Source: Candidatus Goldiibacteriota bacterium (lineage in GTDB: Bacteria > Oederibacteriota > PGYV01 > DYJU01). From it: a stretch of 45,437 nucleotides of DNA. Made by a program: the position numbers and the translations under genes. Below, in pieces: positions 255 to 42,295 of the stretch. Below the pieces are notes generated by a model. The model was not told the origin of the DNA and did not search any database. It saw nothing but the letters and a program-made list of their open reading frames with translations. Numbering within the stretch: the first letter of the stretch is position 1; each line of letters starts with the position of its first letter. The stretch is taken from positions 1-45,437 of the forward strand of contig CALHNI010000014.1 in the NCBI GenBank assembly GCA_938034975.1. Reading direction: 5' to 3'.

Positions 255-465
255 CCTGAAAAACGCATTAGCGTTTTTCAGGGGAAAAGAGAAAATATAA
301 AAAAAGGTTTATAAACAAATAAGAATTTTAAGAGTGTCCTTGTTTTTAAAATTAAAAAACAGGTGAATTAAAGTAATGTGCTATAAAAATAAAAAATTAT
401 TAAACAAAAAAGCCAAAAATATTTTATATCCCCGTAAAAACGCATTTTCTAACGCGTTTTTACGG
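255..465 (+). repeat. Hairpin-ended dispersed repeat, copy R1 (A to B orientation)
   Basis: End A is a perfect 12-bp hairpin at 255-282 (CCTGAAAAACGC, loop ATTA). End B is a hairpin at 432-465 (CCGTAAAAACGC with its complement). Between them is the family-conserved segment with AGGTGAA at 361-367, then AAAGTAATG and CTATAAAAAT. An ATG at 376 opens a 35-codon frame running through hairpin B to TGA 481-483. R1 matches R6 (33879-34090, opposite orientation) almost base for base over 210 bp, so these two form one subfamily. R1 lies between the end of the first gene and the infC promoter. Confidence 0.85.
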
Positions 466-479
466 ATAAATAAAATTTC

Positions 480-507
480 TTGACAAAAAAAAAATATATA
501 ATATAAT
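480..507 (+). promoter_or_regulatory. Sigma-70-type promoter of the infC operon
   Basis: TTGACA at 480-485 and TATAAT at 502-507 are separated by 16 bp, both perfect consensus. Transcription would start near 514 and give a leader of about 145 nt before the infC start at 661. The promoter begins 15 bp after repeat R1. Confidence 0.8.
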
Positions 508-537
508 TAAAAAATGTTAAATCAGGATTTAGTAAGC

Positions 538-636
538 AGAAGATTTATCTTCTCACCTGAGAAGGATTATTTAAATACTTGCTCGGGTTTAAAATATATG
601 ATATATGATAGAGAAGATGGCTTTTGCCATCTTTTT
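538..636 (+). promoter_or_regulatory. Attenuator-like leader upstream of infC-rpmI-rplT
   Basis: The leader has competing pairings. Hairpin 538-553 (AGAAGA/TCTTCT) excludes hairpin 549-564 (CTTCTC/GAGAAG). An intrinsic terminator is at 614-636 (AAGATGGC, loop TTTT, GCCATCTT, then T's). ATCTTCTC at 547-554 is perfectly complementary to GAGAAGAT at 611-618, so this long-range pairing would take the 5' arm of the terminator and act as an antiterminator. In Firmicutes the infC-rpmI-rplT leader is autoregulated by ribosomal protein L20. The same logic is likely here, but the sequence alone does not show the ligand. Confidence 0.65.
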
Positions 637-660
637 AAATTTATACGGAGGTGATACAAA

Positions 661-1179
661 ATTTCATCAAAAGAATTAAGAGTAAACGAGCAAATTTTTG
701 CAGAAAAAGTAAGGGTGATTGATAATGAAGGCAAATCTCTAGGGATTTTTGATTTGCAAAATGCTTTAAAAATGGCTGATGATTTGAATTTAGACCTTGT
801 GGAAATAAATCCAAATACAGACCCCCCGGTTTGTAAAATTATGGATTATAGTAAGTTTAAATACAATCAGATGAAAAAAGCAAAAGAAGCAAGGAAACAT
901 CAACAGGAGATTGTTATTAAAAGTATTCAGATGGGTCCCAATATCAAAGATCATGACCTTGAAATAAAATTAAAACATGCTCTTGAATTTCTTGAAAAAA
1001 ATTACAAAGTAAATTTTTCAATACAGTATAAAGGCAGGGATTTAGAACATAAAGATAAGACAGGACCTGAACTTTTAAATAAAATATTAAAATATATAAG
1101 TGAAAAAGGAAAATTGGAAAAAGATCCGGTATTTGATGCAAAAGAAATTTATTTTTCAATAATACCGAGAAAAGATTAA
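661..1179 (+). CDS. infC: Translation initiation factor IF-3, ATT start
   Basis: IF-3 binds the 30S subunit and checks initiator tRNA and start codon. The protein has the canonical N-terminal pattern KELRVNEQI, then the ALKMADDLNLDLVEI helix, the PPVCKIMDY motif and a C-terminal domain with the KGRDLEHKD loop. A GTG at 715 would cut off the conserved first 18 residues. In frame, ATT at 661 sits 5 nt after a strong GGAGGTGAT (647-655) and gives 172 aa, the usual length. E. coli infC also starts with AUU, which IF-3 uses to repress its own synthesis, so the ATT start is very probably genuine. rpmI and rplT follow directly. Confidence 0.93.
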   Translation: MSSKELRVNEQIFAEKVRVIDNEGKSLGIFDLQNALKMADDLNLDLVEINPNTDPPVCKIMDYSKFKYNQMKKAKEARKHQQEIVIKSIQMGPNIKDHDLEIKLKHALEFLEKNYKVNFSIQYKGRDLEHKDKTGPELLNKILKYISEKGKLEKDPVFDAKEIYFSIIPRKD

Positions 1180-1196
1180 AAAAGGAGAAAATGAAA

Positions 1197-1394
1197 ATGC
1201 CAAAATTAAAAACGAATTCCTGTGCTAAAAAAAGATTTAAGATAACAGCAAAAGGGAAAATAAAATTTAAACACGCAGGTTTAAGACATTTGCTTTCTCA
1301 TGAAAGCAGTAATGTCAAAAGACCAAAAAGAAAACCAGGTTATGTTGATAAAACACAGCAAAAGGATATATTAAAATTATTACCTTATAGATAA
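1197..1394 (+). CDS. rpmI: 50S ribosomal protein L35
   Basis: A small, very basic protein starting MPKLKTNSCAKKRFK, the classic L35 N-terminus, with the later HLLSHESSNVKR segment, which gives 65 aa, typical for the family. ATG 1191 also exists (adds Met-Lys), but GGAG at 1184-1187 is only 3 nt from it and 9 nt from ATG 1197, and L35 proteins start at MPKLK, so 1197 is preferred. It sits 17 bp after infC and 36 bp before rplT, the conserved infC-rpmI-rplT order. Confidence 0.95.
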   Translation: MPKLKTNSCAKKRFKITAKGKIKFKHAGLRHLLSHESSNVKRPKRKPGYVDKTQQKDILKLLPYR

Positions 1395-1430
1395 TAAATA
1401 TTTTAAGAAAACTAACGGAGGTTAAATAAA

Positions 1431-1799
1431 ATGGCAAGAGTAAAAAGAGGTGTGATGACCAGAAAACGTCATAAAAAAATGATTAAACTGGCAAAGGGTT
1501 ATTATGCAAGAAAAAAGAATGTTTGGTCAAAAGCGTCAGAGCAGGTAAGGAAGGGCTGGGAGTATGCTTATTTTGGAAGAAAACAGAAAAAAAGAAATTT
1601 TAGAAAATTATGGATAGTAAGAATAAACGCTGCATGCAGATTAAATGATATTTCTTATTCAAAGTTTATTTCAGGGCTTAAAAAGGCAAATATTGAAATA
1701 AACAGAAAACAACTTGCGGAACTTGCAGTAAATGATTCTGCTGCATTTGCAAAACTTGTTGAAGTTTCAAAAGGGAAAAATTTAGTTACCGCTGGTTAA
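1431..1799 (+). CDS. rplT: 50S ribosomal protein L20
   Basis: 122 residues with the L20 signature: N-terminal MARVKRGV, then the [12 protein letters not shown] stretch, [21 protein letters not shown] cut by the usual RLND turn, and a C-terminal [16 protein letters not shown] segment. L20 is an early 23S rRNA assembly protein, and in several bacteria it represses its own operon by binding the leader RNA. The start is preceded by ACGGAGGT with good spacing. No clear terminator separates it from the permease gene 25 bp downstream, so read-through is possible. Confidence 0.96.
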
Positions 1800-1824
1800 A
1801 AAAAAAAATGGGGTTACAGTGTAA

Positions 1825-3783
1825 ATGGTTGAGCGCTTGAGGTCTATACAAAGAAAGATAATAATTGAAAAAGAAAAATTAAAAAGAGAAATAGGTGTGG
1901 CTGGACTTTTAAGCACAGCCTATGGAAATGTTGGTTCATCAATATATTATGCACTTGGCGCAACTGCTGTTTTTGCTTTGGGTGCAACTCCGATTGCTAT
2001 TGCAGTTGCAGGCATATTTTTTGTATTTAGCGTTTTTAGTTTTTCAGAAGGTGCTAGCATGTTCCCTTTTGCCGGTGGTGCAGCTTTTTACGCGAGAAAA
2101 GCATATAACGAAGTCATAAGTTTTTTTGCCGGCTGGGTTGATTTGCTTTCTTATATTGCAACAATTGCAATATCATCTGTTACTGCTGTTTATTATGCCG
2201 CATATTTTTTCCCATTTTTAAAAGTTCCTATTCCGATAAAAATAGGGGAAAATATAAGTTTTTCAACAGATCCTAATTTTTTTGTTATTTTTTTTGCGGT
2301 TATGATAGTTTTATTTCTTATGGGATTAAATATAATAGGTATTAAAGAGACAATGAAATTTAATATATTTTTTGCTGTTTTAGATATATTAACACAGTTG
2401 ATAATTGTTGTTTTGGGTTTCATACTTTTATTTAATCTGGATGAATTGTTGAGTTTGCCGTCAAAAGGACCTGAATACTGGCCTGATTTTAAAAATCTTA
2501 TATATGGATTTGCAGTTGCCATAGTTGCTTATACTGGTATTGATACAATTTCCCAGATGGCAGAAGAAACAGCAGATTATAAAATAAAGATTCCCAAAGC
2601 ATATAATTTACTTATGATAATTGTTTTATTAATGTATTTAACCATACCTGTGGTTGGTATAAGTGCGGTAGGTCCTAAGGAACTTGCAACCACCTGGCAT
2701 ACTGATCCGATAGCCGGTATTGCTCATTATATGCCACAAATTACAATAGCAGGGGCAAAAATAAATTTAAGCGCAATTTTTGCGCCATGGATTGCTTTGC
2801 TTGCTATTTCAATATTACTTATTGCAACAAATGCCGGGATAATAGGAGCGTCACGTCTTGCATACTCAATGGGACAATACAGACAATTGCCATCTTTTAT
2901 TTTTAAATTGCATCGTAAATTTAATACTCCACATAAAGGAATCATGTTTTTTTGTTTTGTTGCAATTTTATTACTTATATCAGGAATTTTTTTTAAGGAT
3001 ATTTTTGTAAAGTTGGCTATTTTATATAGTTTTGCAACAATTATTATTTTTATAATTGCTGATTTATCCATAATTGTTTTAAGGTTAAAATTTCCTGAAA
3101 TGGAGAGACCTTTTAAAATACCATTGAATATAAAAATTAAAGGGAAAGAATTGCCACTTACAGCGATTATAGGTTCCATATTCAAAATTTTAATTTTTTT
3201 TGTTATAATAACAGGGAATGCATGGGCAAGTTTTATCGGTTTGGGTTGGATAATTGCAGGGTTTATTCTGTATTTTATTTACAGAACAGGGTATAAATTA
3301 CCAGTGTTTGAAGAAGTATCAATAGAAAGAGTTGCAGAAGCAGCTTATTTGCCTATTGTATATGAAGGTATTTTAGTTCCTACTACAGGAGAGATTGATG
3401 CTGAGATGATTCAAATGGCATGTAAAATAGCACAACGTGATAAATCAAATGTGACAGCTCTTTATGTTATTGAAGTCCCTATGGTTTTACCTTTGGATGC
3501 AAAAATACCGGCAGAAGAAGAAAAGGCACATAAAATTATGGACCAGGCAGAATTGATTGGAAAAGAATACGGAGTTCAGATAAATACGAAAATAATTCAG
3601 ACAAGAACCGCAGGAAAAGCAATTGTTGAGCAGGCAAAAGCAATGAAGGCAAGTTTGATATTATTAGGTTCAGGTAGCAGAGAAAAGAAAACAGAAGAAA
3701 TATTAAATGGAAAAACCGTTAACTTTGTTGCTAAAAATGCTCCTTGTCCTGTATTGACTAATATCGCAGAAAATGTTTTTTAA
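1825..3783 (+). CDS. APC-superfamily permease with C-terminal UspA-like domain
   Basis: 652 residues. About 12 hydrophobic segments fill residues 25-490, with the APC hallmark near the start (GVAGLLSTAYGNVGSSIYYALG), followed by a universal stress protein-like domain at about 509-650 (LPIVYEGILVPTTG start, LLGSGS near the end). APC transporters move amino acids, polyamines or, in the KUP/KimA branch, potassium. The two RCK/TrkA proteins directly downstream (16 bp gap) point to a monovalent cation substrate, but this is inference. The USP nucleotide-binding loop is only partly canonical (GSGS, then NGKTV). The ATG at 1825 has no strong Shine-Dalgarno site, so translation may be coupled to upstream transcription. 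Confidence 0.8.
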   Translation: MVERLRSIQRKIIIEKEKLKREIGVAGLLSTAYGNVGSSIYYALGATAVFALGATPIAIAVAGIFFVFSVFSFSEGASMFPFAGGAAFYARKAYNEVISFFAGWVDLLSYIATIAISSVTAVYYAAYFFPFLKVPIPIKIGENISFSTDPNFFVIFFAVMIVLFLMGLNIIGIKETMKFNIFFAVLDILTQLIIVVLGFILLFNLDELLSLPSKGPEYWPDFKNLIYGFAVAIVAYTGIDTISQMAEETADYKIKIPKAYNLLMIIVLLMYLTIPVVGISAVGPKELATTWHTDPIAGIAHYMPQITIAGAKINLSAIFAPWIALLAISILLIATNAGIIGASRLAYSMGQYRQLPSFIFKLHRKFNTPHKGIMFFCFVAILLLISGIFFKDIFVKLAILYSFATIIIFIIADLSIIVLRLKFPEMERPFKIPLNIKIKGKELPLTAIIGSIFKILIFFVIITGNAWASFIGLGWIIAGFILYFIYRTGYKLPVFEEVSIERVAEAAYLPIVYEGILVPTTGEIDAEMIQMACKIAQRDKSNVTALYVIEVPMVLPLDAKIPAEEEKAHKIMDQAELIGKEYGVQINTKIIQTRTAGKAIVEQAKAMKASLILLGSGSREKKTEEILNGKTVNFVAKNAPCPVLTNIAENVF

Positions 3784-3798
3784 AGAAAGGATAAAAAA

Positions 3799-4236
3799 AT
3801 GAAAATAGTGATACTGGGGTGCGGAAGATTAGGTTCCCGCGTAGCATTAAAATTAGGCAAAGATGAAAATAATCAGATAATTGTTATTGATAAAAATCCT
3901 GATGCTTTTATTTTGCTTGGTAAGGATTTTAAAGGTAAAATTCTTGAAGGTGATGGAGCAAATATGGAAACATATATTAAAATTATGACTGAAAAACCAG
4001 ATGTGTTTTTAGCCCTTACCAATTCAGATAATACAAACATAATGGCTGCTGAAATAGCAAAACAAAAATATAAAGTTGAAAAGACAATTGCAAAGGTTTA
4101 TGACCCTATAAGGGCAAGGGCTTTTGAAGAATTAGGGATAGAAACAATATGTCCAACTTTGCTCTGCGAAAAGAAGATAAATAAAATGATTGAAAAAGCA
4201 AAGGTAAAAGAAAGCGAGAGTGATGAGGATGCCTGA
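3799..4236 (+). CDS. RCK_N (TrkA-N) domain protein, single domain
   Basis: 145 residues with a Rossmann fold: GCGRLGSRVA at residues 7-16, an acidic residue ending strand 2 (IVIDKN), a DGAN turn and LALTNSDNTN. This is the regulator-of-K+-conductance N-domain of TrkA/KtrA, which binds NAD(H) or ATP/ADP and gates cation transporters. No RCK_C domain follows. The protein ends in an acidic tail and overlaps the next RCK gene by 17 nt. The pair (RCK_N only, then RCK_N+RCK_C) probably forms a hetero-oligomer attached to the permease upstream, with AAAGGA before its ATG. Confidence 0.82.
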   Translation: MKIVILGCGRLGSRVALKLGKDENNQIIVIDKNPDAFILLGKDFKGKILEGDGANMETYIKIMTEKPDVFLALTNSDNTNIMAAEIAKQKYKVEKTIAKVYDPIRARAFEELGIETICPTLLCEKKINKMIEKAKVKESESDEDA

Positions 4237-4909
4237 TTTATCAGAAAAAGATAACCGTAAGTTTATCATAGTTGTTGGCGCCGGAAAGATGGGATATAAT
4301 CTTACAAAACTTTTGATTTCTGAGGGGCATGAGGTTCTTTTGGTGGAAAAAGATAAAGCAAGGTTCAATGAGTTAAGTGCTGAATTAGGTGAAAGTATAT
4401 TTTTAGGCGATGCTGCTGAATCTGATGTTTTAAAACAGATAGGGACTAACAGAGCAAATGTAGTTGTTGCAGTAACAGGAGATGATGATACAAATCTGAT
4501 AATCTGTCAGATGGCAAAAATAATGTATATGACGCCAAGAACGATAGCAAGAATTTCAAATCCCCAAAATGAAGATATTTTTTCAACATTAGGTGTTGAT
4601 AACATTGTAAATACCACACATATAGTAAATTCTCTTATTGAAAAAGAAGTTGATGCAGGAATGATAGTGCCAATACTTGATATAAAAGGAAGTAATGCTG
4701 AAATAGTTGAAACAGAACTTTCATCAAATTCACCTATAATAAATAAGGCAATAAAAGATATAAAATTACCTGAAGAGAGTTTAATTGTTTCAATTTTAAG
4801 GGATGGTCAGGTAGTTTTTCCGCACGGAAACACAGTGCTTAAAAATGGAGATACAATTATGATACTGGTTTCCAAGGAAAAGCGGGATATTTTAAGACAA
4901 ATTCTATGA
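4220..4909 (+). CDS. TrkA-family K+ uptake regulator, RCK_N plus RCK_C
   Basis: 229 residues. An RCK_N Rossmann domain (VVGAGKMGYNLTK at about 18-30, LVEKD, LGDAAES, AVTGDDDTN) is followed by an RCK_C domain at about 145-229 that ends in the typical DGQVVFPHGNTVLKNGD turn. RCK_C domains of KtrA/KtrC and CpaA are established c-di-AMP receptors in Firmicutes, and this window encodes a diadenylate cyclase (37442-38218). Three starts are possible: GTG 4220, ATG 4223 and ATG 4229. GAGAG at 4215-4219 favours none decisively. The gene ends about 50 bp before repeat R2. Confidence 0.83.
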   Translation: MMRMPDLSEKDNRKFIIVVGAGKMGYNLTKLLISEGHEVLLVEKDKARFNELSAELGESIFLGDAAESDVLKQIGTNRANVVVAVTGDDDTNLIICQMAKIMYMTPRTIARISNPQNEDIFSTLGVDNIVNTTHIVNSLIEKEVDAGMIVPILDIKGSNAEIVETELSSNSPIINKAIKDIKLPEESLIVSILRDGQVVFPHGNTVLKNGDTIMILVSKEKRDILRQIL

Positions 4910-4958
4910 AAATTTATTCAAGATTTTTAAATCAGAAAATAAATAAATTGATTTCTTT

Positions 4959-5165
4959 CTGAAAATCGTATTAAAAGATTGCGATTTCCAGGAGAAAAAA
5001 CACAAGAATAATATATTATTTTAAAAAATAAAATATTTAAAACAACGCTTGAGTTTTATTTTAAATTTAAAAAACGGGTGAATAAAAGTAATGCATTATA
5101 AAAATAAAATTAATAAAAAAATTTTGTTTTTCCGTAAAAACGAGTTTTCTAACGCGTTTTTACGG
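4959..5165 (+). repeat. Hairpin-ended dispersed repeat, copy R2, fused to a gene start
   Basis: End A is an imperfect hairpin at 4959-4991 (CTGAAAATCG with GCGATTTCCAG). End B is at 5132-5165 (CCGTAAAAACGAGTT, TTCT loop, AACGCGTTTTTACGG). The conserved interior is present: a TTTTATTTTAAATTT tract, then ACGGGTGAATAAAAG and ATG at 5091. The first 25 codons of the following GT-C gene are exactly the repeat from that ATG to the last base of hairpin B. Confidence 0.85.
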
Positions 5166-7151
5166 TTTCTTTTTATTTATTGTTTAGCAGTTTCTTTTTT
5201 ATTTTTATTTACAATGCTTATCTATAGCAATTTAAATTTTTCAGCCCCGCTGGATGATGCATTTATTTATTTTCAGTATGCAAGGAATACAGCTTTTGGG
5301 AATTTTTTTGAATATGTAAAAGGAGAAGGTTATTCATCAGGAGCAACCAGTTTTATTTATGTGTTTTTTTTAATTCCTTTTATTTATATTTTTAAAGGGC
5401 AGTACTTAATAATTGCGACTTATATTATAGGTGGCGTATGTTTATTCGTTACATCCTATTTTTTGTATAAGTTAATTCATCATATAACAAATAATGAAAA
5501 ATTGGCTTTTTTTGGTGTTTTGTTATTTGTTTTAAATGGTAATATTTTATGGGGTTTTTTTTCTGGTATGGAAATATGCCTGATTTTTACATTTGTTATT
5601 TTAGCGTTATATTACATTGCTGTTCCTTCTGAGACTTATAAAAAAATTTTGGCGCTTTGTTTTTTATCCCTGACAAGACCCGAGAGTTATATTCTCGTGT
5701 TGATTTTTTTTATAGTTAAAATTTTCAACAGAATTTATAATAAAAAAGAAAAATTGCTTGTCTATTTAATTCCTGTTTTTACCGGTCTTATCTATTTTTT
5801 ATTAAACAAATTTTTTACCGGTGATTATATGCCAAACACAATGCGGGCTAAATCAAATTTTTCCCTATTTTATTTTGATTATACAGAAATGATAAAACAC
5901 GGATGGGTATTTTATCTGCAGTTTTTAAAGGACATTTTTAACGGTGGTAAAGAACACTATTTTTTACATTACTCATTATTCTTTTTTTTAATTGGAATTA
6001 TGCCAGGGGTTATAAAAGAAATAAAAAACAAAAAAATGGAATTTTTTTCAATTTCTTTTTTTTGGTTTTTTATAGGTGTTATGGCAACAATGTTTTCAAG
6101 TTTTGCGCTTGTCCATAATTTCAGATATACAATGCCTTTTACAATAATCTTTATACTTTTTTTGGTAAATGGTTTAAAATTTGTTTTTGATACTTTAAAA
6201 ATATCAAAATACAGTTTACTTGTCATGGCAATTTTAAGCGTTTTTATCGTCTTTAATATTTTTACTTTTTTTGCAAATATAATAAACTTTGGCAGGGATT
6301 GCAACGCGATTTATTCTCAATCAATTCAGGCAGGTAAATGGTTAAGAGAAAATTTAAAAGATAAAAAAGTCGCTGTCAATGATGTCGGTGCAATTCAATA
6401 TTTTTTCAACGGGAAAATTTTTGACCTTGTTGGACTTGTAACAAATCATCAGGCAATAAATTTCAGGAATGGATTACCTGGCGTATTTGAAGCACTAGAA
6501 CGTATAAAGCCTGAATATTTTATGGTGCATATTGGCTGGTTTAATTATGAACCATATACTATTTTTAAAAAACCAAAACTTGCTGAATTTTCAATAAAAA
6601 GAGAACCCCCTTATTATGTTATCGGCTCACCAGAAATATGTTTTGAAACAGATATGTCACTTTTTCAAAGTGGTGATGAAATGCTTAAAGATTTTACTGA
6701 AAATGGCAATTTTATTTTAAAAGATAAAATAGATATTTGTGATATTATAGACGAAAAAGAACATTCTTATAAAATATGGGTTAAATGGCGCGGGGAATAT
6801 CCCGGGACAGAACTTTATGAGGAAAATTCCAAATATAGCGGGAAAAGAATAATTGATGCCGGCAGAATAACAAGTGGCGGGGAACAATTCAAAATAAAAA
6901 ATTTAATTCCCGGAGTTGATACCAAAATCATAATAAGAACTTATAACAACCCACGGAACTTACTTGACGTATTTATTAATGGGCAAAAAATAGGCAGATG
7001 GCTGATAGAAGAGACCGAAGGTTTTTCAGAAAATGAATTTTTTATAAAAGGTGATTATATAAAAAAAACAGAAGAAATTATCAAACTTGAAGTTGTTTCA
7101 AAAAACAGGTATAATAGTTTTTACTATTTTATTTTACAAAAAAAGACCTAA
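5091..7151 (+). CDS. GT-C fold membrane glycosyltransferase (DDAFIYF motif)
   Basis: 686 residues. The first membrane helix at about 26-46 is followed by APLDDAFIYFQYARN (Asp55-Asp56), the catalytic-loop signature of GT-C enzymes of the AftB/ArnT type that use polyprenyl-phosphate sugars. About ten more hydrophobic segments run to about residue 405, then a soluble C-terminal domain of about 280 residues of unknown role. Residues 1-25 are encoded by repeat R2. Helix 1 begins straight after it, so any start before helix 1 must lie in the repeat (ATG 5091, or TTG at codon 12). GGGTGA lies 9 nt before ATG 5091. It is followed 8 bp later by a second GT-C gene. Confidence 0.75.
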   Translation: MHYKNKINKKILFFRKNEFSNAFLRFLFIYCLAVSFLFLFTMLIYSNLNFSAPLDDAFIYFQYARNTAFGNFFEYVKGEGYSSGATSFIYVFFLIPFIYIFKGQYLIIATYIIGGVCLFVTSYFLYKLIHHITNNEKLAFFGVLLFVLNGNILWGFFSGMEICLIFTFVILALYYIAVPSETYKKILALCFLSLTRPESYILVLIFFIVKIFNRIYNKKEKLLVYLIPVFTGLIYFLLNKFFTGDYMPNTMRAKSNFSLFYFDYTEMIKHGWVFYLQFLKDIFNGGKEHYFLHYSLFFFLIGIMPGVIKEIKNKKMEFFSISFFWFFIGVMATMFSSFALVHNFRYTMPFTIIFILFLVNGLKFVFDTLKISKYSLLVMAILSVFIVFNIFTFFANIINFGRDCNAIYSQSIQAGKWLRENLKDKKVAVNDVGAIQYFFNGKIFDLVGLVTNHQAINFRNGLPGVFEALERIKPEYFMVHIGWFNYEPYTIFKKPKLAEFSIKREPPYYVIGSPEICFETDMSLFQSGDEMLKDFTENGNFILKDKIDICDIIDEKEHSYKIWVKWRGEYPGTELYEENSKYSGKRIIDAGRITSGGEQFKIKNLIPGVDTKIIIRTYNNPRNLLDVFINGQKIGRWLIEETEGFSENEFFIKGDYIKKTEEIIKLEVVSKNRYNSFYYFILQKKT

Positions 7152-18174: not shown

Positions 18175-18189
18175 AAAATGTAAAAATAC

Positions 18190-18367
18190 ATTAGAAAACG
18201 CGTTTTTTAAAAAAAACAAAATATTTTTATAAGGTAATACTTTTATTTACCAGTTTTTAAATTTAAAATAAAACATAAATATTATTTTAAAAATTTAAAA
18301 TATTTAATAATATTTTTGTTGTGTTTTTTTATTCTGGAAATTATAATTTTTTATTGCGTTTTTCAGG
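18190..18367 (-). repeat. Hairpin-ended dispersed repeat, degenerate copy R3 (A to B on minus)
   Basis: Read on the minus strand, an eroded end A (18334-18367) is followed by the shared TGTTTTATTTTAAATT tract, a GGTAAATAAAAGTA segment and the second half of hairpin B (18191-18210). The conserved ATG has become ATT and hairpin B is incomplete. It fills most of the 326-bp gap before flgB; the rest holds the promoter at 18408-18436. Confidence 0.65.
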
Positions 18368-26943: not shown

Positions 26944-27115
26944 CCGTAAAAACGCGTTAGAAAACGCGTTTTTTACGGTAATAAATTTTTATTTTTATAA
27001 TGCATTGCTTTTTTTTTACCCGTTTTTTAATTTAAAATAAAACACAAGTGTTATTTTAAATATTTTTTTGTATTTTTTATCCTGAAAATCTCAATTTTAA
27101 ATCTCGATTTTCAGG
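26944..27115 (-). repeat. Hairpin-ended dispersed repeat, copy R4 (A to B on minus)
   Basis: Hairpin B is at 26944-26978 (CCGTAAAAACGCGTT, TTCT-type loop; one extra T in one arm). The interior has TTATAATGCATT and ACCCGTTTTTTAATTT on the plus strand. Hairpin A is at 27081-27115 (CCTGAAAATC with GATTTTCAGG). On the minus strand the conserved ATG (27005-27003) opens only a 10-codon frame because of the extra base. It occupies most of the 466-bp gap between comM and the CNB gene; the rest shows nothing clear. Confidence 0.85.
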
Positions 27116-27683: not shown

Positions 27684-27717
27684 CCGTAAAAACGCGTTTG
27701 AAAACACGTTTTTACGG
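27684..27717. repeat. Solo hairpin B of the dispersed repeat (R8)
   Basis: A 34-nt palindrome (CCGTAAAAACGCGTTT, then AAAACACGTTTTTACGG) equals end B of the family without end A or the interior. It lies between the CNB gene promoter and the tRNA promoter, in a 327-bp gap. Its A-tract/GC/T-tract symmetry would also suit a bidirectional terminator. Confidence 0.8.
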
Positions 27718-27837: not shown

Positions 27838-27913
27838 TGCCGGGTCGTCTAATTGGCAGGACATCTGACTCTGGATCAGAGAGTTGGTGGTTCGACTCCA
27901 CCCCCGGCAGCCA
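27838..27913 (+). tRNA. tRNA-Gln, anticodon CTG
   Basis: Cloverleaf by hand: acceptor TGCCGGG (27838-27844) with CCCGGCA and discriminator G, D-stem GTC/GAC, anticodon stem TCTGA/TCAGA with loop CTCTGGA (anticodon CTG at 27871-27873), and T-arm GGTGG-TTCGACT-CCACC. The CCA end (27911-27913) is encoded. It reads glutamine CAG codons. No second tRNA is adjacent. The TPR gene starts 30 bp downstream. Confidence 0.95.
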
Positions 27914-33603: not shown

Positions 33604-33631
33604 AATATATCACTTTTGAAGTTATTGTCAA
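33604..33631 (-). promoter_or_regulatory. Promoter of ribH-nusB
   Basis: Minus strand TTGACA (33631-33626) and TATATT (33609-33604) with a 16-bp spacer, 30 bp before ribH. Confidence 0.7.
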
Positions 33632-33644: not shown

Positions 33645-33832
33645 TCTGAAAATTGAATTAAAAGATTACGATTTTCAGAAGAAAAAAAAATACAACAAAA
33701 ATATTATTAAACAAATTAAATACTTTAAATAATAATTATGTTTTATTTTAAACAAAAAACGGGTGGATAAAAGTAATGCATTATAAAAATTTTTTATTTT
33801 TCAGTAAAAACGTTTTTTATGCTTTTTTACTG
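33645..33832 (+). repeat. Hairpin-ended dispersed repeat, copy R5 (A to B)
   Basis: Hairpin A is at 33645-33679 (TCTGAAAATTG with CGATTTTCAGA). The interior has ACGGGTGGATAAAAG and ATG at 33776, then CATTATAAAAAT. Hairpin B is decayed at 33802-33832. The ATG opens 32 codons (33776-33874) starting MHYKN, as in R2. It faces R6 end-to-end across 46 bp. Confidence 0.8.
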
Positions 33833-33878: not shown

Positions 33879-34090
33879 CCGTAAAAACGCATTAGAAAAT
33901 GCGTTTTTACGGTAATATAAAATATTTTTTGCTTTTTTTGCTTAATAATTTTTTATTTTTATAGTAAATTACTTTAATTCACCTGTTTTTTAATTTTAAA
34001 AACAAATACACTCTTAAAATTCTTATTTGTTTATTAACCTTTTTATATATTTTCTCTTTTCCCCTGAAAAACGCTAATGCGTTTTTCAGG
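33879..34090 (-). repeat. Hairpin-ended dispersed repeat, copy R6 (A to B on minus)
   Basis: Hairpin B is intact at 33879-33912 and hairpin A at 34063-34090 (CCTGAAAAACGC, loop TAAT). It is nearly identical to R1. The conserved ATG is ATT here. With R5 it fills most of the 590-bp divergent gap between ribH and ftsH. Confidence 0.85.
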
Positions 34091-34104
34091 AAGAAACAAA
34101 ACAC

Positions 34105-34133
34105 TTTACAACATTTTAAAAATAATGTATAAA
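34105..34133 (+). promoter_or_regulatory. Promoter of the ftsH operon
   Basis: TTTACA at 34105-34110 and TATAAA at 34128-34133 with a 17-bp spacer, 31 bp before the TTG start and just after repeat R6. Confidence 0.6.
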
Positions 34134-34164: not shown

Positions 34165-36015
34165 TTGAGTAATTCAAATAGCAAAAATAGTTTTTCTTTG
34201 TCTTTCTGGTTTTTTTTATTTTTGATTCTGATTATTTTTTTTAATTATTATTCAACTGTAAAGGAAATAGGACCTAAAAAACTTGAATATTCCAGACTGT
34301 TAAATGAAGTAAAAAATGGGAAAATTGAAAAAGTAATACTTTATTCCAAGGAAGACGGTTTAAGGGATATAGAAGGAATAAAGAAGGACAAGACACCGTT
34401 TTTTTCAACAGCACCAGGAGACGATGATACATTATATAAATTATTACATGAAAATAATGTGGAAATAATCGTAAGGCCACCTAAAACAACTTTCGGTAAA
34501 ATACTAGGTAATTTTTTAATATACTGGGGACCTGTGCTTTTACTCGTTTTATTTCTTTTTTTTATGTATAGAGGTTCGCAAAGTGGAGCAGGAGGTGCTT
34601 TATCTTTTGGGAAAAGCAGAGCCAAACTTGCCCAGATTGGCGGGAAAGTAACTTTTAATGATGTTGCCGGTATAGATGAAGCAAAAGAAGAGTTAAAAGA
34701 AATAATTGATTTTTTAAAAGATCCAAAGAAATTTCAGAGACTTGGTGGAAAAATTCCAAAAGGCGTTTTATTATTAGGGCCGCCTGGTTCGGGGAAAACG
34801 CTTCTAGCCCGTGCTATAGCAGGAGAAGCAGGAGTTCCTTTTTTTTCAATATCAGGTTCGGATTTTGTAGAGATGTTTGTAGGTGTTGGAGCTGCAAGAG
34901 TAAGGGATTTATTTGACCAGGGGAAGAAAAATGCACCCTGTATAATTTTTATAGATGAAATTGATGCTGTGGGAAGATATCGCGGGGCAGGGTTAGGTGG
35001 CGGGCATGATGAAAGAGAACAAACTTTAAATGCATTACTTGTTGAAATGGATGGGTTTGAATCAAATTCAGGAGTAATAATAATTGCAGCAACAAACAGG
35101 CCGGATATTTTAGATCCGGCTTTATTAAGACCTGGTAGATTTGACAGACAAATAGTGGTTGACAGACCTGATTTAAAAGGAAGGGAAGGAATTTTAAAAG
35201 TTCATACAAGAAATGTTTTATTGGATAAAGAGGTTGACCTTTCAATAATAGCAAGAAGAACATCTGGTTTTTCCGGTGCTGACCTTGCAAATCTGGTAAA
35301 TGAAGCAGCATTGCTTGCTGCCCGAAGGGATAAGAAAGCAATAACAATGGAAGAATTAGAAGAATCAATTGACAGGGTAATTGCAGGACCGCAGAGAAAA
35401 AGCAGAGTAATAAGTGATAAAGAAAAAAAACGTATTGCTTATCATGAGTCAGGGCATGCACTTGTTGCGAAATTTTTACCGGATACAAATCCAATACATA
35501 AAATTTCAATAATACCACGTGGTTACGGGGCATTAGGATATACATTACAATTGCCAACAGAAGACAGGTTTCTTGCAACACGTAATGAAATGTTTAATAA
35601 TATATCTGTTATGCTCGGTGGCAGAGCAGCAGAAGAGATAATTTTTAAGGAAGTATCAACAGGTGCAAGCAATGATTTGGAAAGAGCAACGGAAATTGCT
35701 CATAAAATGGTTTGCGAGTTTGGTATGAGTGATAAACTCGGGACTTTAACTTATGGTAAATCAAGCAGGGAAATATTTTTAGGTAAAGACCTTATGCGTG
35801 AAAAAAATTACAGTGAAAGGACAGCCCAACTTATAGATGCAGAAGTAAAAAATATTGTTGATACATGTTATGAGAAGTCAAGAAGCATTTTAAAAAAGCA
35901 CAAGGCTCTTTTGAATAAAATAGCAAATACTTTGCTTGAAAAAGAAATAATTGAAGGTGAAGATTTTGAAAAACTTTTCAAAGATTATAACGGAAAAAAA
36001 ATTAAAGATGGATAA
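34165..36015 (+). CDS. ftsH: ATP-dependent zinc metalloprotease FtsH
   Basis: 616 residues. Two membrane helices (about 10-28 and 112-135) flank a small periplasmic domain. The AAA+ module has Walker A GPPGSGKT at 205-212, Walker [10 protein letters not shown] near 260 and the second region of homology ([21 protein letters not shown] region). The zinc protease site is HESGH at 427-431 with Asp504 as third ligand. It degrades membrane and regulatory proteins. TTG 34165 follows AAAGGAGGA. First gene of the operon to the NtrC-type regulator. Confidence 0.97.
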
Positions 36016-36565
36016 GAAAAAAATTCAACAGGCGGTCAAGCAGATTTTAAAGGCAATCGGAGAAAACCCTGAAAGAGAAGGATTAAAAGAAACTCCGAGA
36101 AGAGTTGCGGAAATGTATGAGGAGATATTTTCTGGCATAAAACAAAAACCTGAAAGTGTTGTAAAAATTTTTTGTTCAGAAGAGCACGATGAGATGATTA
36201 TATTAAAAGATATACCATTTTATTCTGTTTGTGAGCATCATTTAATGCCTTTTTTAGGTAAAGCGCATATTGCATATATACCAAAGGGTAATAAACTTAT
36301 AGGATTAAGTAAACTGGCAAGAATAGTTGAAATTTTTGCAAAAAGGCTACAATTACAGGAGAGATTAACAACTCAAATAGCAGATACGATAAAAGAACTT
36401 ATAGACCCATTGGGAGTCCTTGTAATTATTGAAGCAGAACATTTATGTATGACAATGAGGGGTATTAAAAAGCCAGGGTCAAAGATGGTAACATCAGCAT
36501 TAAGGGGAGCATTTAAGAAAAATGAATCAACGCGAAAGGAAGCACTTGACCTTATAAAAAATTAG
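36008..36565 (+). CDS. folE: GTP cyclohydrolase I
   Basis: 185 residues, normal length. It converts GTP to dihydroneopterin triphosphate, the first step of folate synthesis. Zinc-binding CEHHLMPF and the second Cys in HLCMTMRG, plus [20 protein letters not shown], are diagnostic. ATG 36008 overlaps the end of ftsH by 8 nt. A reading from 35951 adds 19 non-homologous residues. The folate genes folE-folP lie side by side. Confidence 0.95.
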
Positions 36566-36585
36566 ATTTTTTAAAGAAGGTTTTT

Positions 36586-37440
36586 ATGCGGGTTAAAAAC
36601 GCACAAAAAAATTTGAAATTTGGTAAAACATATATAATGGGGATATTAAATGTAACGCCGGATTCGTTTTATGATGGCGGGAAATTTTTTAGCATAAAAG
36701 CAGCAGTAGAAAGGGCAAAAAAAATGATAGCGCAAGGGGCAGATATTATTGATATAGGCGGAGAATCAACAAGACCGGGTTCTTTAAGGGTATCCTCAGA
36801 AGAGGAAAAAAAAAGAATTTTACCTGTTATTGAGGCAATCAGAAAAGAAAATAAAGAAATAATAATTTCGGTTGATACATATAAATCAGAAGTCGCCAAA
36901 TGTTCTATAAATGCAGGAGCAGATATGATAAATGATATATCCGGTGGACTGTTTGAGCCGGAAATTTTAAATATAGTTGCTCAAAATGACGTATATTATG
37001 TAATTATGCATATTAAAGGCACTCCTGAGACAATGCAGAAAAATCCATGTTACTCTGAAAAAGGTGTTGTAAATGACATAATTGAATATTTTTATGAAAG
37101 AATAAAAGTTGCTGAAAGTTATGGTATAAACAGGGATAAGATTATTTTAGACCCTGGAATCGGTTTTGGCAAGACCCTTGAACATAATATAGAAATTTTA
37201 AGAGATTTAGATAAATTAAAACAATTTAAATTACCACTTTTAATAGGGACTTCAAGAAAATCAATGATAGGTAATATTTTAAATAAACAGCCAGCAGAAA
37301 GATTATATGGCACTCTTGCTACAGTTGCTTTAAGCATAATAAAAGGAGTGGATATAGTAAGAGTGCATGATGTTGCAGAGACAAGAGATGTTGTGCTGGT
37401 TTTAGATGCCATAGTTAAGAGTAAACAGGAGAATATTTAA
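36586..37440 (+). CDS. folP: Dihydropteroate synthase
   Basis: 284 residues, a TIM barrel. It joins p-aminobenzoate to the pterin pyrophosphate. Motifs: IMGILNVTPDSFYDGG, GADIIDIGGESTRPGS, ISVDTYKSEVA, DPGIGFGKT, GTSRKSMIG, and the C-terminal RVHDVAETRDVV. It is the sulfonamide target. It lies 20 bp after folE and 1 bp before cdaA, whose AGGAG site is inside its 3' end. Confidence 0.96.
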   Translation: MRVKNAQKNLKFGKTYIMGILNVTPDSFYDGGKFFSIKAAVERAKKMIAQGADIIDIGGESTRPGSLRVSSEEEKKRILPVIEAIRKENKEIIISVDTYKSEVAKCSINAGADMINDISGGLFEPEILNIVAQNDVYYVIMHIKGTPETMQKNPCYSEKGVVNDIIEYFYERIKVAESYGINRDKIILDPGIGFGKTLEHNIEILRDLDKLKQFKLPLLIGTSRKSMIGNILNKQPAERLYGTLATVALSIIKGVDIVRVHDVAETRDVVLVLDAIVKSKQENI

Positions 37441-37441
37441 A

Positions 37442-38218
37442 ATGGCAGAGTTTTTAAAAAATGTAATAAATACAGTTTCAGGAATGAAATGGAATGATAT
37501 CATAGACATTTTACTCGTTGCTTTTATTTTATATCAATTATTTATGCTAATCAAAGAAACCAGGGCAATTCAGATGTTAAACGGATTAATAATAATTTTC
37601 TTTTTTGTGTTTTTATCAAAATTTTTGGGTCTTGCAACAATATCATGGATTTTAACAGGACTTTCTGCAATTTGGATCATTGCTTTTGTTATTGTTTTTC
37701 AGCCTGAATTAAGACGTGTTCTTGTAGAATTTGGTCAGAATCGGCTTTTTAAATTTATATTTAAAGAACATGCACAATTATACAGGGAACTAAAAAATGC
37801 AGCTGAAATAATGAAAAAAAAGAAGATTGGGGCTTTAATTGTTTTGGAAAGGGATGTAAACTTAAAAAGTTTTATTGATACAGGGGTTAAAATTGATGCA
37901 GAAACAACATCTGAACTTTTACTGGCAATATTTAATCCCAGATCCCCGTTACATGATGGCGCTGTTATAATAAGAGAGGGGCGTATAGCGGCAGCAGCAT
38001 GCATATTACCACTTACTCAAAAGGAAGATATTGATAAATCATACGGAATGAGGCATAGGGCAGCTCTTGGTATATCAGAGGAAACAGATGCTATAACAAT
38101 AATTGTTTCAGAAGAAAGAAAGAGTGTATCTCTTGCTATAAGCGGAAAAATTACTCCGAATATTGACGGCGATACACTCCTGGAAATTTTGGCAGTTTAT
38201 GCACCTAAAATAAGATAA
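37442..38218 (+). CDS. cdaA: Diadenylate cyclase CdaA
   Basis: 258 residues. Three N-terminal membrane helices (about 17-85) are followed by the DAC (DisA_N) domain: SPLHDGAVII with DGA at 172-174 and RHRAALGISEETDA with RHR at 204-206, the catalytic motifs. It makes c-di-AMP from two ATP at the membrane. The order cdaA-ybbR(cdaR) is conserved in Firmicutes. Here folP precedes it, as in several other phyla. Confidence 0.94.
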   Translation: MAEFLKNVINTVSGMKWNDIIDILLVAFILYQLFMLIKETRAIQMLNGLIIIFFFVFLSKFLGLATISWILTGLSAIWIIAFVIVFQPELRRVLVEFGQNRLFKFIFKEHAQLYRELKNAAEIMKKKKIGALIVLERDVNLKSFIDTGVKIDAETTSELLLAIFNPRSPLHDGAVIIREGRIAAAACILPLTQKEDIDKSYGMRHRAALGISEETDAITIIVSEERKSVSLAISGKITPNIDGDTLLEILAVYAPKIR

Positions 38219-38230
38219 TAAAGGTGAGTT

Positions 38231-38671
38231 ATGAAAAATTTTATAAATAGGTATATTATAAAAAATTGGCAGTATAAAGTCCTTTCATTTGTAATTGCTT
38301 TTATATTATGGTTTTATGTGGTAAGCAACCAGAGTTTAAATATTAAATTAAATGTTCCGATAGAATATGACAATTATCCTTCAAATCTTAAATTGGCTGG
38401 GAAAGTTGAAAATTCTGCTGAATTACTATTGGAAGGCAGGAGGGATATCATAAACCGCATTGATAAAAATAATATAAAAATAAGAATAGATTTAAAAGGC
38501 GCACGAGAAGGCAAAAATAATTATATAATTACTTCTAAACGCATTGAAAATTTGCCTGACGGAATTATAATAAAAGATATTTCTCCATCAAGAGTTGTAT
38601 TAACCTTTTATATAAATTCAAAAGAGATAGATGTGAAAAAACAAAATAATTCAAAAGAGGGGCAACAATAA
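38231..38671 (+). CDS. cdaR: YbbR-domain protein, CdaA regulator-like
   Basis: 146 residues. A single N-terminal membrane helix (about 15-33) is followed by one outside YbbR domain (LNVPIEYDNYPSNLKLAG and GIIIKDISPSRVVLTF). The B. subtilis CdaR has several such domains, so this is a short form. CdaR binds and modulates CdaA. AAGGTGAG precedes ATG 38231. Its stop and the pdxJ start share one base. Confidence 0.86.
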   Translation: MKNFINRYIIKNWQYKVLSFVIAFILWFYVVSNQSLNIKLNVPIEYDNYPSNLKLAGKVENSAELLLEGRRDIINRIDKNNIKIRIDLKGAREGKNNYIITSKRIENLPDGIIIKDISPSRVVLTFYINSKEIDVKKQNNSKEGQQ

Positions 38672-39384
38672 TGGCAAAACTTTGTGTTAATATTGACCAC
38701 GTAGCAACTTTAAGACAGGCAAGGGGTGAAAAATTTCCTTCAGTAATTGATGCGGCAAAGATAGTAGAAAAATCAGGATGTGCAGGTGTTACTGTTCATT
38801 TAAGGGAAGATAGGCGTCATATTCAGGATGAGGATGTTATTAATCTAAAAAAAATATTAAAAACAAAATTAAATTTGGAAATGTCAATAAACAAAGATAT
38901 AGTAAATTTTGCTTTGAAAATTATACCGGATGAAGTTACTTTAGTTCCTGAAAAAAGGCAGGAACTTACAACCGAAGGCGGGCTTGATGTTATAAAATAC
39001 AAAAAAAGATTAAAAAAAATAATAAAGGATTTGCATAAAAAGGGAATTGTGGTTAGTTTGTTTATAAATCCTGATTTTAAGCAAATAGACGCAGCTAAAA
39101 AAGTTGGTGCTGATTTTATTGAAATCCATACAGGACATTATGCAGAGGCAAAAAATAAAACAAATTTTGAAAAAGAATTTAAAAAGATAAAAAATGCGGC
39201 AATATACGCAAAAGAAACAGGGCTTGGAGTAAATGCAGGACATGGTTTAAATTATGATAATGTAAAAGAAATAGCAGGTATTAAGGAAATAGAAGATTTA
39301 AATATAGGTTTCAGTATAATTGCGAGGGCTGTATTTATAGGTCTGGAAAATGCTATAAAAGAAATGTTAAAGTTAATAAGGTGA
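38671..39384 (+). CDS. pdxJ: Pyridoxine 5'-phosphate synthase
   Basis: 237 residues. It makes pyridoxine 5'-phosphate from deoxyxylulose phosphate and amino-acetone phosphate. Motifs: VNIDHVATLRQARG, VHLREDRRHIQDED, EIHTGHYAE, and GLGVNAGHGLNYDN. AGGGGC precedes ATG 38671. It is the DXP-dependent B6 route, implying a DXP pathway elsewhere in the genome. Confidence 0.96.
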   Translation: MAKLCVNIDHVATLRQARGEKFPSVIDAAKIVEKSGCAGVTVHLREDRRHIQDEDVINLKKILKTKLNLEMSINKDIVNFALKIIPDEVTLVPEKRQELTTEGGLDVIKYKKRLKKIIKDLHKKGIVVSLFINPDFKQIDAAKKVGADFIEIHTGHYAEAKNKTNFEKEFKKIKNAAIYAKETGLGVNAGHGLNYDNVKEIAGIKEIEDLNIGFSIIARAVFIGLENAIKEMLKLIR

Positions 39385-39391
39385 TTTAAAT

Positions 39392-40075
39392 ATGAAAAAT
39401 GGGTTAAAGCAGATAGAAGCAAAAGAATCAATGATCGCTGCTTTGGCACATGAAATAAAGAATCCGTTAAATTCAATAAAAGGGGCAAATAAATTTTTGC
39501 ATGATAAGTATAAATTTAATAAGGAAATATACGAATTTACCGGATTAATAGAAAATGAGATTTTAAGATTAGAAAGATATCTTAATGAATTTATGAGTTT
39601 TTCACGGGGTATAAAATTAAGATTAAGGGAAGTTGATTTGGAAAATTATTTAAAAGGAATAATTTTGATGGCAAAGCATGGATTCAAAGGAGATATATTG
39701 ATAAAGAAAAAAAAAGATAAATTACCTTTATTTGTTGCTGATCCGGAATTATTCAGGCAGGTTCTGGATAATTTGATTTTAAATGCAAAAGATGCTGTGA
39801 GTAAGAAAAACAATCCCAAAATAGAAATAATAATTGATTATAATGGAAAATATTTTATTTTTGAGATTTTTGATAATGGTTGTGGAATCAAAAAAAATAA
39901 TTTAAAAAAAGTTTTTTTGCCATTTTATACTACAAAATCAAATGGTTTGGGAATAGGCCTTTCTATATGTAATGCCATAATTAAGAAACACAATGGCCAG
40001 ATATCTGTAAAGAGTGTGGAAAAAAAATGGACCAGATTTATAATTAAAATGCCATATATTAAAAGGGATAATTAA
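39392..40075 (+). CDS. Soluble histidine kinase without sensor domain
   Basis: 227 residues. HisKA box AALAHEIKNPLNSIKG (His20 is the phospho-acceptor) and an HATPase domain: N-box DNLILNAKDA, G1 DNGCGIKK, G2 NGLGIGLSI. No membrane helix, PAS or GAF domain precedes it; the N-terminus is only 15 residues. Input must come from a partner or the protein acts as a phospho-relay. The NtrB/AtoS type with NtrC-family partner follows 1 bp downstream. Confidence 0.88.
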   Translation: MKNGLKQIEAKESMIAALAHEIKNPLNSIKGANKFLHDKYKFNKEIYEFTGLIENEILRLERYLNEFMSFSRGIKLRLREVDLENYLKGIILMAKHGFKGDILIKKKKDKLPLFVADPELFRQVLDNLILNAKDAVSKKNNPKIEIIIDYNGKYFIFEIFDNGCGIKKNNLKKVFLPFYTTKSNGLGIGLSICNAIIKKHNGQISVKSVEKKWTRFIIKMPYIKRDN

Positions 40076-40076
40076 T

Positions 40077-41477
40077 ATGGTAAGAAAAAAAATTCTTATT
40101 ATAGATGATAATGTTTCCACATTAAAAGTTATAAAAGCAATTTTAAGTGAAGAAGGTTATGTTGTATTTACTGCTTCAAATGCAAAAGATGCGTTAAGCA
40201 TAGTTCAAACCGAGAAGATAAATGTAATATTACTTGATTTAAAAATGCCTGATATGGATGGATTAGAGTTATATAAAAAAATAGCACAGATAGATAAAAA
40301 AGTTGTGGTAATAATAATGACTGCATATGGGACTATAGAATCAGCTGTTAATGCGATGAAACTTGGCATAGAAGATTATATTCAAAAACCTTTAAACTAT
40401 GAAGAATTAAAAATAACGGTAGCAAAAATATTTGAAAAAATAAATTTAAAAGAAGAACTAGAAATTTTAAAAGGTCAGTTATATGGCGAAAATGTGTTTG
40501 AAAATATGATAGGAAAATCCAGAAAAATGAAAGAAATTTTTAAAAAAATAATAAATATTGCAAAAGTTGATTCTACTGTTCTTATAACAGGTGAAAGTGG
40601 CACTGGTAAAGAAATGGTTGCCAAAGCAATTCATAATTTATCAAACAGGCGGGAAAATAAAATGATTTCCATAAATCTTGCTGCTATACCAGAAGGGCTT
40701 CAGGAATCTGAACTTTTTGGTTATGAAAAAGGCGCTTTTACCGGTGCATATACAAAAAAACCAGGTAAATTTGAAATAGCAGATAAAGGAACAATTTTTT
40801 TGGACGAAATAGGAAATATAAATTTTACTGTTCAGGCGAAACTTTTAAGAGTTTTGGAAGACAAAAAAATAGAGCCATTAGGCAGCAATAAATCCAGAAT
40901 TGTTGATGTTAGAATAATAAGTGCTACAAACAGTGATTTGATGGCAGAAGTTTCAAAAGGCAGATTCAGGGAAGATTTGTATTACAGGTTAAATGTTATA
41001 TCAATAAATTTACCACCACTAAGAGAAAGAAAGGCAGATATTCCATTACTTGCTGAATTTTTTCTGAATGAATTTTGTATTAAAAACAATATGGAAAAAA
41101 AATCATTATCTGATTCTGCAATTGAATTATTGCTTCAATATAATTGGCCTGGGAATATTAGAGAACTTAGAAATGTTATTGAAGAAGCAGCGGTTGTTTC
41201 AAACAGTGAAATATTAACAGTAGAAGATTTAAATATTAATCCCCAAAAAAATAAAGGTAGTACAATATTTATTGGTGACTTAGAACTTAGTTCAAATTCT
41301 TCACTTATAGAAATAGAAAAAGAACTAATTAAAAATGCATTAATAAAAACAAAAGGAAATCAAACCCAAGCAGCAAAATTATTAAAAATATCAAGAAAAG
41401 TATTATTAAATAAAATTAAAAGATACAATATATCTGAAATTGTCCAGATAAGGACAAAATCTAAAAAAATGGGCTAA
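40077..41477 (+). CDS. NtrC-family sigma-54-dependent response regulator
   Basis: 466 residues. A REC domain (1-120; LIIDDN start, LLDLKMPDMDG with the phospho-acceptor Asp) is followed by the AAA+ domain with GESGTGKE at 172-179, GAFTGA at 219-224 (sigma-54 contact) and RFREDLYYRLNV. A Fis-type HTH (GNQTQAAKLLKISRKVLLNKI) closes it. It activates sigma-54 promoters when phosphorylated by the kinase upstream. The nearest sigma-54 site is 56 bp downstream, before the PilZ gene. Confidence 0.95.
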   Translation: MVRKKILIIDDNVSTLKVIKAILSEEGYVVFTASNAKDALSIVQTEKINVILLDLKMPDMDGLELYKKIAQIDKKVVVIIMTAYGTIESAVNAMKLGIEDYIQKPLNYEELKITVAKIFEKINLKEELEILKGQLYGENVFENMIGKSRKMKEIFKKIINIAKVDSTVLITGESGTGKEMVAKAIHNLSNRRENKMISINLAAIPEGLQESELFGYEKGAFTGAYTKKPGKFEIADKGTIFLDEIGNINFTVQAKLLRVLEDKKIEPLGSNKSRIVDVRIISATNSDLMAEVSKGRFREDLYYRLNVISINLPPLRERKADIPLLAEFFLNEFCIKNNMEKKSLSDSAIELLLQYNWPGNIRELRNVIEEAAVVSNSEILTVEDLNINPQKNKGSTIFIGDLELSSNSSLIEIEKELIKNALIKTKGNQTQAAKLLKISRKVLLNKIKRYNISEIVQIRTKSKKMG

Positions 41478-41533
41478 ATGGCTCAAAAGTAATATATTAA
41501 AATAAAAAAAATATCATATTTTCATACATTTTG

Positions 41534-41549
41534 TGGCACGCCATTTGCT
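41534..41549 (+). promoter_or_regulatory. Sigma-54 promoter of the PilZ gene
   Basis: TGGCACG (41534-41540), CCAT, TTGCT (41545-41549) matches the consensus TGGCACG-N4-TTGCT fully. GG (41535-41536) and GC (41547-41548) have the required 10 bp between them. Transcription would start near 41560, with the PilZ ATG at 41592. The region upstream to 41478 is AT-rich and short for enhancer sites. Confidence 0.9.
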
Positions 41550-41591
41550 ATACTATAACCTAATAAAATAAAAAAATATTTAGGAGGGAAA

Positions 41592-41960
41592 ATGCAAAAT
41601 ATATATATGGAAAGAAGAAAAGATGAAAGAATACCTGTTCAAAATCAGGCAAAATTCAGAATAATAGGTGATATACCAGCAGAAGCGATATCATATGATT
41701 ATAAAAGTGCAATTGCAAAAAATATTTCCAAAGGCGGAATATGTTTAGTTTTATCACAAAAAATATCAGAAGGAAATATTATAAGAGTTGAAGTTCCAAT
41801 TGGTGAAACAAAAATTATTAAAGCATTTTGTGAGGTTGTATGGTGTAAAGAACAGGATTCAAATGGGTATTATGAAGTTGGTTTAAGTTTTATTGCATTA
41901 AAAGAAGAAGATGCAGAATTTTTAGATAAGTTTATTAAAGATAATAAAAGGGCAATTTAA
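41592..41960 (+). CDS. PilZ-domain protein (c-di-GMP receptor)
   Basis: 122 residues, a single PilZ domain. The RxxxR motif (Arg9-Arg13 in ERRKDER) and NxSxxG (Asn44-Gly49 in NISKGGI) are both intact, so c-di-GMP binding is likely. PilZ proteins act on flagellar motors, exopolysaccharide or pili. TAGGAGGG precedes ATG 41592; a second ATG at codon 6 is less well placed. The preceding sigma-54 promoter and NtrC-type gene suggest control by that two-component pair. Confidence 0.9.
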   Translation: MQNIYMERRKDERIPVQNQAKFRIIGDIPAEAISYDYKSAIAKNISKGGICLVLSQKISEGNIIRVEVPIGETKIIKAFCEVVWCKEQDSNGYYEVGLSFIALKEEDAEFLDKFIKDNKRAI

Positions 41961-42114
41961 AACTATAGTATTTTTTATTTTTTAAATAACTTTAAAAAAT
42001 TTATATATATATTTTTTTTAATCTATAAATATTATTTTTATATAATCCTGATAATTTTTTATAATGTTTTTAAGGGATATAAATTTATTCAATTTATCTT
42101 ACATTACACATAAT

Positions 42115-42295
42115 CCGTAAAAACACGTTAGAAAACGTGTTTTTAAGGGAAAACAATAATGCATTACTTTTATTACCCCGTTTTTAATTTAAAATAAAAC
42201 ATAAGTGTTGTTTAGAAAATTTATTTTTTTAATAATAATTTTTGTATTTTTTTTCTTCTAAAAAAACACAATTTTCTATAATAATTTTCAGAAGG
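42115..42295 (-). repeat. Hairpin-ended dispersed repeat, copy R7 (A to B on minus)
   Basis: Hairpin B is at 42115-42148 (CCGTAAAAACACGTT with AACGTGTTTTTAAGG; two paired changes keep the stem, one mismatch). The interior has AATGCATTACTTTTATTACCC. Hairpin A is eroded (42255-42295). On the minus strand the ATG remains but reads hairpin B in another frame. It is the only clear structure in the 413-bp gap after the PilZ gene, apart from the promoter at 42316. Confidence 0.75.

Follow-up and report, generated by a model that had tools for sequence, protein, structure and literature searches.

The 45,437-bp stretch of DNA analysed here (the window; contig CALHNI010000014.1 of a draft Candidatus Goldiibacteriota genome) contains a dispersed repeat with a hairpin at each end. 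Seven copies, R1 to R7, and a solo hairpin lie in the window (Table 1), and the positions given in an earlier note made from the sequence were confirmed to within a few bases, except that copy 3 proved longer (18178-18367). The seven copies were used to build a covariance model, and a scan of the 1.93-Mb genome with it identified at least 150 copies, at E-values from 8e-26 to 2e-6, nearly all of which spanned the full model. The assembly is 84% complete and consists of 66 contigs, many of them broken at these repeats, and the real total may exceed 150. Many copies adjoin predicted promoters at a fixed spacing, and the origin of this arrangement is considered below.

Repeat family, ends and target-site duplication

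Read in the A-to-B orientation, each copy begins with an A hairpin and ends with a B hairpin, the interior between them being AT-rich. Copy lengths were about 120–230 bp, mostly 170–225 bp, and no transposase gene was present inside. The interiors aligned throughout the family in the genome scan, excluding the possibility, raised in the earlier note, that the hairpins alone recur while the interiors do not align. With R1 alone as a plain DNA query, about 40 close copies were found at 85–98% identity. Two main clusters accounted for 50 and 40 of 104 intact copies, with mean identity near 80%. The block AAAACRGGTGAATAAAAGTAATGCATTATAAAAAT (for example, at window positions 5072-5104) was among the best-kept parts of the interior, in both subfamilies and in every copy.

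Reading inward, the A end begins CCTGAAAAACGCATTA and the B end begins CCGTAAAAACGCGTTA. The two hairpins form an imperfect 16-bp terminal inverted repeat (TIR), 14 of 16 terminal positions being shared on inversion, and each terminal repeat is itself palindromic. Target-site duplications (TSDs) were then counted at the edges of the 103 copies intact at both ends, which were also used for the promoter counts below. Exact duplications of 5 bp or more abutted the hairpin feet in 41 of the 103 (40 of 5–6 bp and one of 9 bp), compared with about 2.3 expected by chance when partners were shuffled (about 2.1 for duplications of 5–6 bp). T was preferred at flank position 1 and A at position 5 on both sides, giving the consensus T-W-W-W-A. 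Insertion made a 5-bp target-site duplication. The inverted-repeat ends and the 5-bp TSD, in a short multicopy element without a transposase gene, therefore identify the family as a TIR-type miniature inverted-repeat transposable element (MITE). The earlier note had correctly taken the family for a hairpin-ended repeat derived from a transposon, but its statement that the element does not resemble a TIR MITE was wrong, as the hairpins are inversions of each other.

A paired stem change in R7 had also been interpreted as a sign that the fold is under selection or was copied as a fold. The paired change exists, and 18 of 27 stem pairs had at least one double change among the 118 copies compared. 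The double-changed cells, however, came mostly from two positions that separate the subfamilies, and one-sided stem changes were common, so that the covariation argues only weakly for selection on the fold.

No MITE copies were found in 40 relatives, including a genome of the same genus, at E ≤ 1e-5 under strict filters. A search of the collection of named genomes gave a single exact match to the B hairpin, on a 3.2-kb contig assigned to the bin Candidatus Calidifonticultor daggyaiensis; this contig may be mis-binned. A MITE copy (L155, 1-191) lies at the edge of a contig so binned, beside a helicase gene, and may reflect transfer or mis-binning.

Predicted promoters in register with the element ends

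Promoters were predicted from sequence with a simple −35/−10 matrix. Outside the elements, on both the A and B sides, TTG was found at +14 to +16 and TATAAT at about +36 to +39, counting outward from the element end. Matrix hits at +14 to +16 occurred in 54 of 119 B flanks and 32 of 133 A flanks, compared with about 1 per position in a Markov control. A promoter −35 box at +14 to +16 was present on either side in 59 of the 103 intact copies, while other offsets were represented by 0 to 8 copies (mean about 4.6). Counted per flank, 66 of 206 were in register against a background of 2.3% (p about 3e-55). At a stricter score threshold the figures were 35 of 206 and 0.14%, and at a score of 13 or more, 14 of 206 flanks were in register and none in the background.

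The register was found in both subfamilies alike (24/37 and 38/66 copies). Near-identical flank pairs were almost absent, indicating that the flanks are independent and not duplicated segments. On promoter sides, the nearest open reading frame (ORF) pointed outward in 62 cases and inward in 15, compared with 48 and 100 on the other sides (Fisher p = 5e-12), confirming the direction of the promoters. Single-sided promoters were on the B side in 38 copies and on the A side in 17 (p = 0.006). Both orientations of the element relative to the adjoining promoter occur.

Two head-to-tail pairs, at C16:5205-5593 and C16:6628-7025 (L085), were separated only by a 5–6 bp duplication between copies, and their outer end was flanked by the same bases as this duplication. 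As read from these junctions, several promoters were struck twice, each at the identical 5-bp site.

A link to IS1380 and a proposed targeting of promoters

IS1380-family transposases are present in this genome as decayed copies only (L149-L154). One IS1380 element end, CCCTAAAATCGCGAT, matches an A end, CCTGAAAATCGCGAT, at 13 of 15 positions, and three internally deleted IS1380 derivatives end in an A-type hairpin (e.g. CCTGAAAATTGTGATTGAAAATTATGATTTTAAGG). The left end of the decayed full IS1380 element lies 13 bp upstream of TTGACA-17-TAAAAA (−35 at +14), and the derivative L152 lies 13 bp upstream of TTGAAA-17-TAAATT (−35 at +14).

The derivatives L150, L151 and L152 represent a rarer non-autonomous form of about 545 bp, in which an A-type hairpin is joined to the 3′ part of the transposase; they share one fusion point at three places. 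In two IS1380 elements a sequence resembling the MITE interior block ..AAAACGGGTGAATAAAAGTAATGCATTATAAAAAT.., CGGGTGA/TGGGTGA, occurs some 95 nt from the 5′ end. The block is not claimed as a promoter or an IS1380 leader, alignment scores being within the range of shuffles.

Other members of the clade were found via a wide sample of 384 genomes. IS1380 elements delimited in other bacteria carry ends of the CC type and, in most cases, 5-bp duplications, like the MITE. An element in the same genus (G001) faces TTGACA-17-TATAAT at +15. In another family of the same phylum (G018, with a single intact pair of element ends), a complete element with the TSD TCTTA faces TTGAAA-17-TATAAT at +14. Outside the phylum (G504), 3 of 3 copies have a promoter at +15 of their shared right end. 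The transposases of these in-register elements and those of the present genome form one group in the tree, with support of 89/88. No transposase relatives were found in other phyla around the chosen genomes or on viral contigs, and among ten distant plasmid-borne IS1380 elements none with delimited ends was in register at a score of 10 or more. IS1380 ends in relatives, namely the right end of L159 (~2890-2943) and the left end of L195 (~1287-1312), likewise repeat the tip in inverted form at a subterminal position, CCCCAAAAATC..GATTTTTAGGG. The clade as a whole may therefore be marked by palindromic ends, and the inverted subterminal tips are perhaps paired transposase-binding sites.

We consider it likely that the family is an IS1380-derived MITE, once moved in trans, with transposition directed to sigma-70-type promoters. 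The matching ends suggest that an IS1380-family DDE transposase, now decayed, would have mobilised the MITE in trans. Strand transfer would place the −35 hexamer 13–15 bp outside one MITE end, and the duplicated 5 bp would be the element-proximal part of this gap. Either end could face the promoter, with the B end preferred about 2:1. Taking the start of the −35 hexamer as −35, the TSD spans roughly −48 to −44. Sigma region 4 sits just downstream of these positions in promoter complexes, and it is therefore physically reasonable that the transposase would dock on promoter-bound polymerase. By analogy with known promoter-targeting elements, such contact with RNA polymerase or sigma, and not the reading of −35/−10 DNA, may be what guides insertion. 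The chances seem evenly balanced that the IS1380 clade evolved integration guided by the polymerase holoenzyme independently of Mutator-like enzymes, the MITE having settled beside many promoters with genes left unbroken.

Several observations weigh against this explanation. The promoters are predictions, none of them mapped, and in about 40% of the intact copies no promoter could be recognised in register; these could be older copies, copies at weak promoters or insertions outside promoters. There is no intact autonomous partner in the 84%-complete assembly. Local alignments of the MITE interior with IS1380 scored no higher than shuffles, and neither L149 nor the G001 element has a matching TSD. 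In the sister group, for which the data are thin and mixed, G602 and G700 have no promoter on the single readable side. The site of a third sister-group member, G475, has TTGACG at +15 inside apparent coding sequence. A good −10 is lacking both there and at the right end of L149, two insertions in or next to coding-like sequence with TTGACG at +14/15. The G475 site hints at recognition of DNA sequence over polymerase.

Under such recognition, the transposase would read the −35 hexamer (TTGAC) as DNA, possibly within a palindrome GTCAA-N8-TSD-N8-TTGAC, and the promoters would be incidental. The coding-like sites of G475 and L149 are in line with this, as are the 7 of 103 copies with promoter-like sites on both sides, and it would seem a possible, if rather unlikely, account. 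It does not readily explain why a strong −10 followed TTGA in 77% of cases in register (n = 56), when the proportion was 17% for outward TTGA at other offsets (n = 121) and 10% for TTGA on the opposite strand (n = 160). Furthermore, −10 boxes were still in excess at +35 to +40 in flanks without an in-register TTG, and poor −35 boxes, such as TTTACA and TTGCTT, were accepted in register.

Alternatively, insertion may have been random, with copies just upstream of promoters surviving selection as the least harmful. In a gene-dense genome survivors would be expected in intergenic DNA, and the copies without an in-register promoter agree with this. Selection would, however, produce a cut-off with a long upstream tail, whereas the observed peak is sharp and counts are back at background from +17 onward, which the explanation does not account for. 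The repeated use of one 5-bp site and the identical spacing kept by autonomous relatives in other genomes also make it very unlikely.

TnGBS, the ISLre2 family and some insertion sequences of the ISKra4 group insert 15–17 bp upstream of the −35 box of sigma-A promoters, and it has been proposed that the Mutator-like transposase of these elements interacts with the initiation complex of the polymerase (PMC3942029). The MITE resembles these elements in its fixed short distance upstream of −35 and in a choice of orientation tied to the asymmetry of its ends. It differs in the transposase family to which it is linked, in a gap of 13–15 and not 15–17 bp, in its 5-bp duplication, in being non-autonomous, and in its copy number, at least 150 in a single genome. 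That a Mutator-like transposase, with the same class of target, moved the MITE instead of IS1380 is accordingly very unlikely: the 5-bp TSD and CC-type ends fit the measured IS1380 elements, IS1380 derivatives bear the A hairpin, and IS1380 elements of the linked clade themselves show the targeting. A search of the genome for PF06782 gave no match, but neither did its control.

A family of structured non-coding RNA genes or cis-regulators, one of two candidates in the earlier note, would account for hairpins with some compensatory changes and for locations upstream of genes. The element, however, lies upstream of the predicted transcripts and not within them, occurs in both orientations, has TSDs and was re-inserted in tandem at one 5-bp site, while the double changes are mostly subfamily differences. 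No copy matched Rfam at gathering or relaxed thresholds, and we regard this interpretation as highly improbable. The other candidate, a single-strand element derived from IS200/IS605, is suggested by the imperfect hairpins at both ends but can be dismissed, as IS200/IS605 elements make no target-site duplication, no fixed tetra- or pentanucleotide adjoins the insertions (the target being AT-rich TWWWA), and the ends are inverted repeats of IS1380 type.

The MITE shares CC-type TIRs and a 5-bp duplication with the IS1380 family (NF033539 / PF13701; e.g. ISEcp1) and its derived MITEs, and shares its genome with decayed transposases with matching ends; it differs in lacking a gene and in having two palindromic ends. 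Correia, BOX/RUP and REP/BIME repeats are likewise short, intergenic and of high copy number, with terminal or internal palindromes; we know of none that is locked to a −35 box. For Ty3, a retrotransposon of yeast, the integration register is set by the transcription initiation machinery, as may be the case here, although Ty3 is a eukaryotic retroelement and the polymerase is RNA polymerase III. The comparison with Ty3 has also been made for promoter-targeting elements (PMC3942029).

Promoter-directed transposition has hitherto been described for one bacterial transposase superfamily, and no account of IS1380 elements targeting promoters was found in the literature searched, subscription journals being outside its coverage. 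A second, unrelated family with near-equal spacing, if true, would suggest that promoter complexes offer a generally safe site at their upstream edge, one that transposons have come to find again and again, as Ty elements did in yeast. The many copies amount to a natural experiment, both on how targets are chosen and on the effect of a hairpin at about −48 on transcription, and a promoter-targeting transposase could serve as a tool for marking promoters.

Copies in the window and their neighbours

Table 1. MITE copies, solo hairpin and adjoining predicted promoters in the window
Feature	Position	Strand	Details
R1, subfamily I	255..465	+	A hairpin 255-282, B hairpin 432-465
Predicted promoter at R1 B end	480..507	+	TTGACA 480-485, N16, TATAAT 502-507; −35 at +15
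R2, subfamily II	4958..5165	+	TSD tttctt 4952-4957 / 5166-5171
R3, subfamily II, decayed	18178..18367	-	No in-register promoter
R4, subfamily II	26944..27115	-	No convincing in-register promoter
Solo B hairpin	27684..27717		Outward predicted promoter on - strand
R5, subfamily II	33645..33832	+	
Predicted promoter outside R5 A end	33604..33631	-	TTGACA N16 TATATT; −35 at +14
R6, subfamily I	33879..34090	-	TSD aagaaa 33873-33878 / 34091-34096
Predicted promoter outside R6 A end	34105..34133	+	TTTACA N17 TATAAA; −35 at +15
R7, subfamily II	42115..42295	-	Weak promoter-like TTGATT N17 TATTTT, −35 at +13 of A end

Copies R5 and R6 lie between a divergent gene pair, each facing one gene's own promoter. 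The promoter beside R5 precedes a - strand ORF (33574-33113), and that beside R6 precedes a + strand ORF starting at 34165. At R1, the gap between the element end and TTGACA is 14 bp, and the predicted promoter precedes a match to the L20 leader family at 528-644. This match is below threshold (41 bits, compared with a gathering score of 58.7), and the region probably represents an autoregulated leader, belonging to an operon of the infC-rpmI-rplT type. The B end of R2 has a weak −35-like TTGTTT at +15 and nothing more convincing in register.

The solo B hairpin is probably the remainder of a copy whose other parts were lost. Its predicted promoter, on the - strand, consists of TTGCAA (27669-27664), N16 and TATAAT (27647-27642), with the −35 at +15. 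A tRNA gene is located nearby, at 27838-27910.

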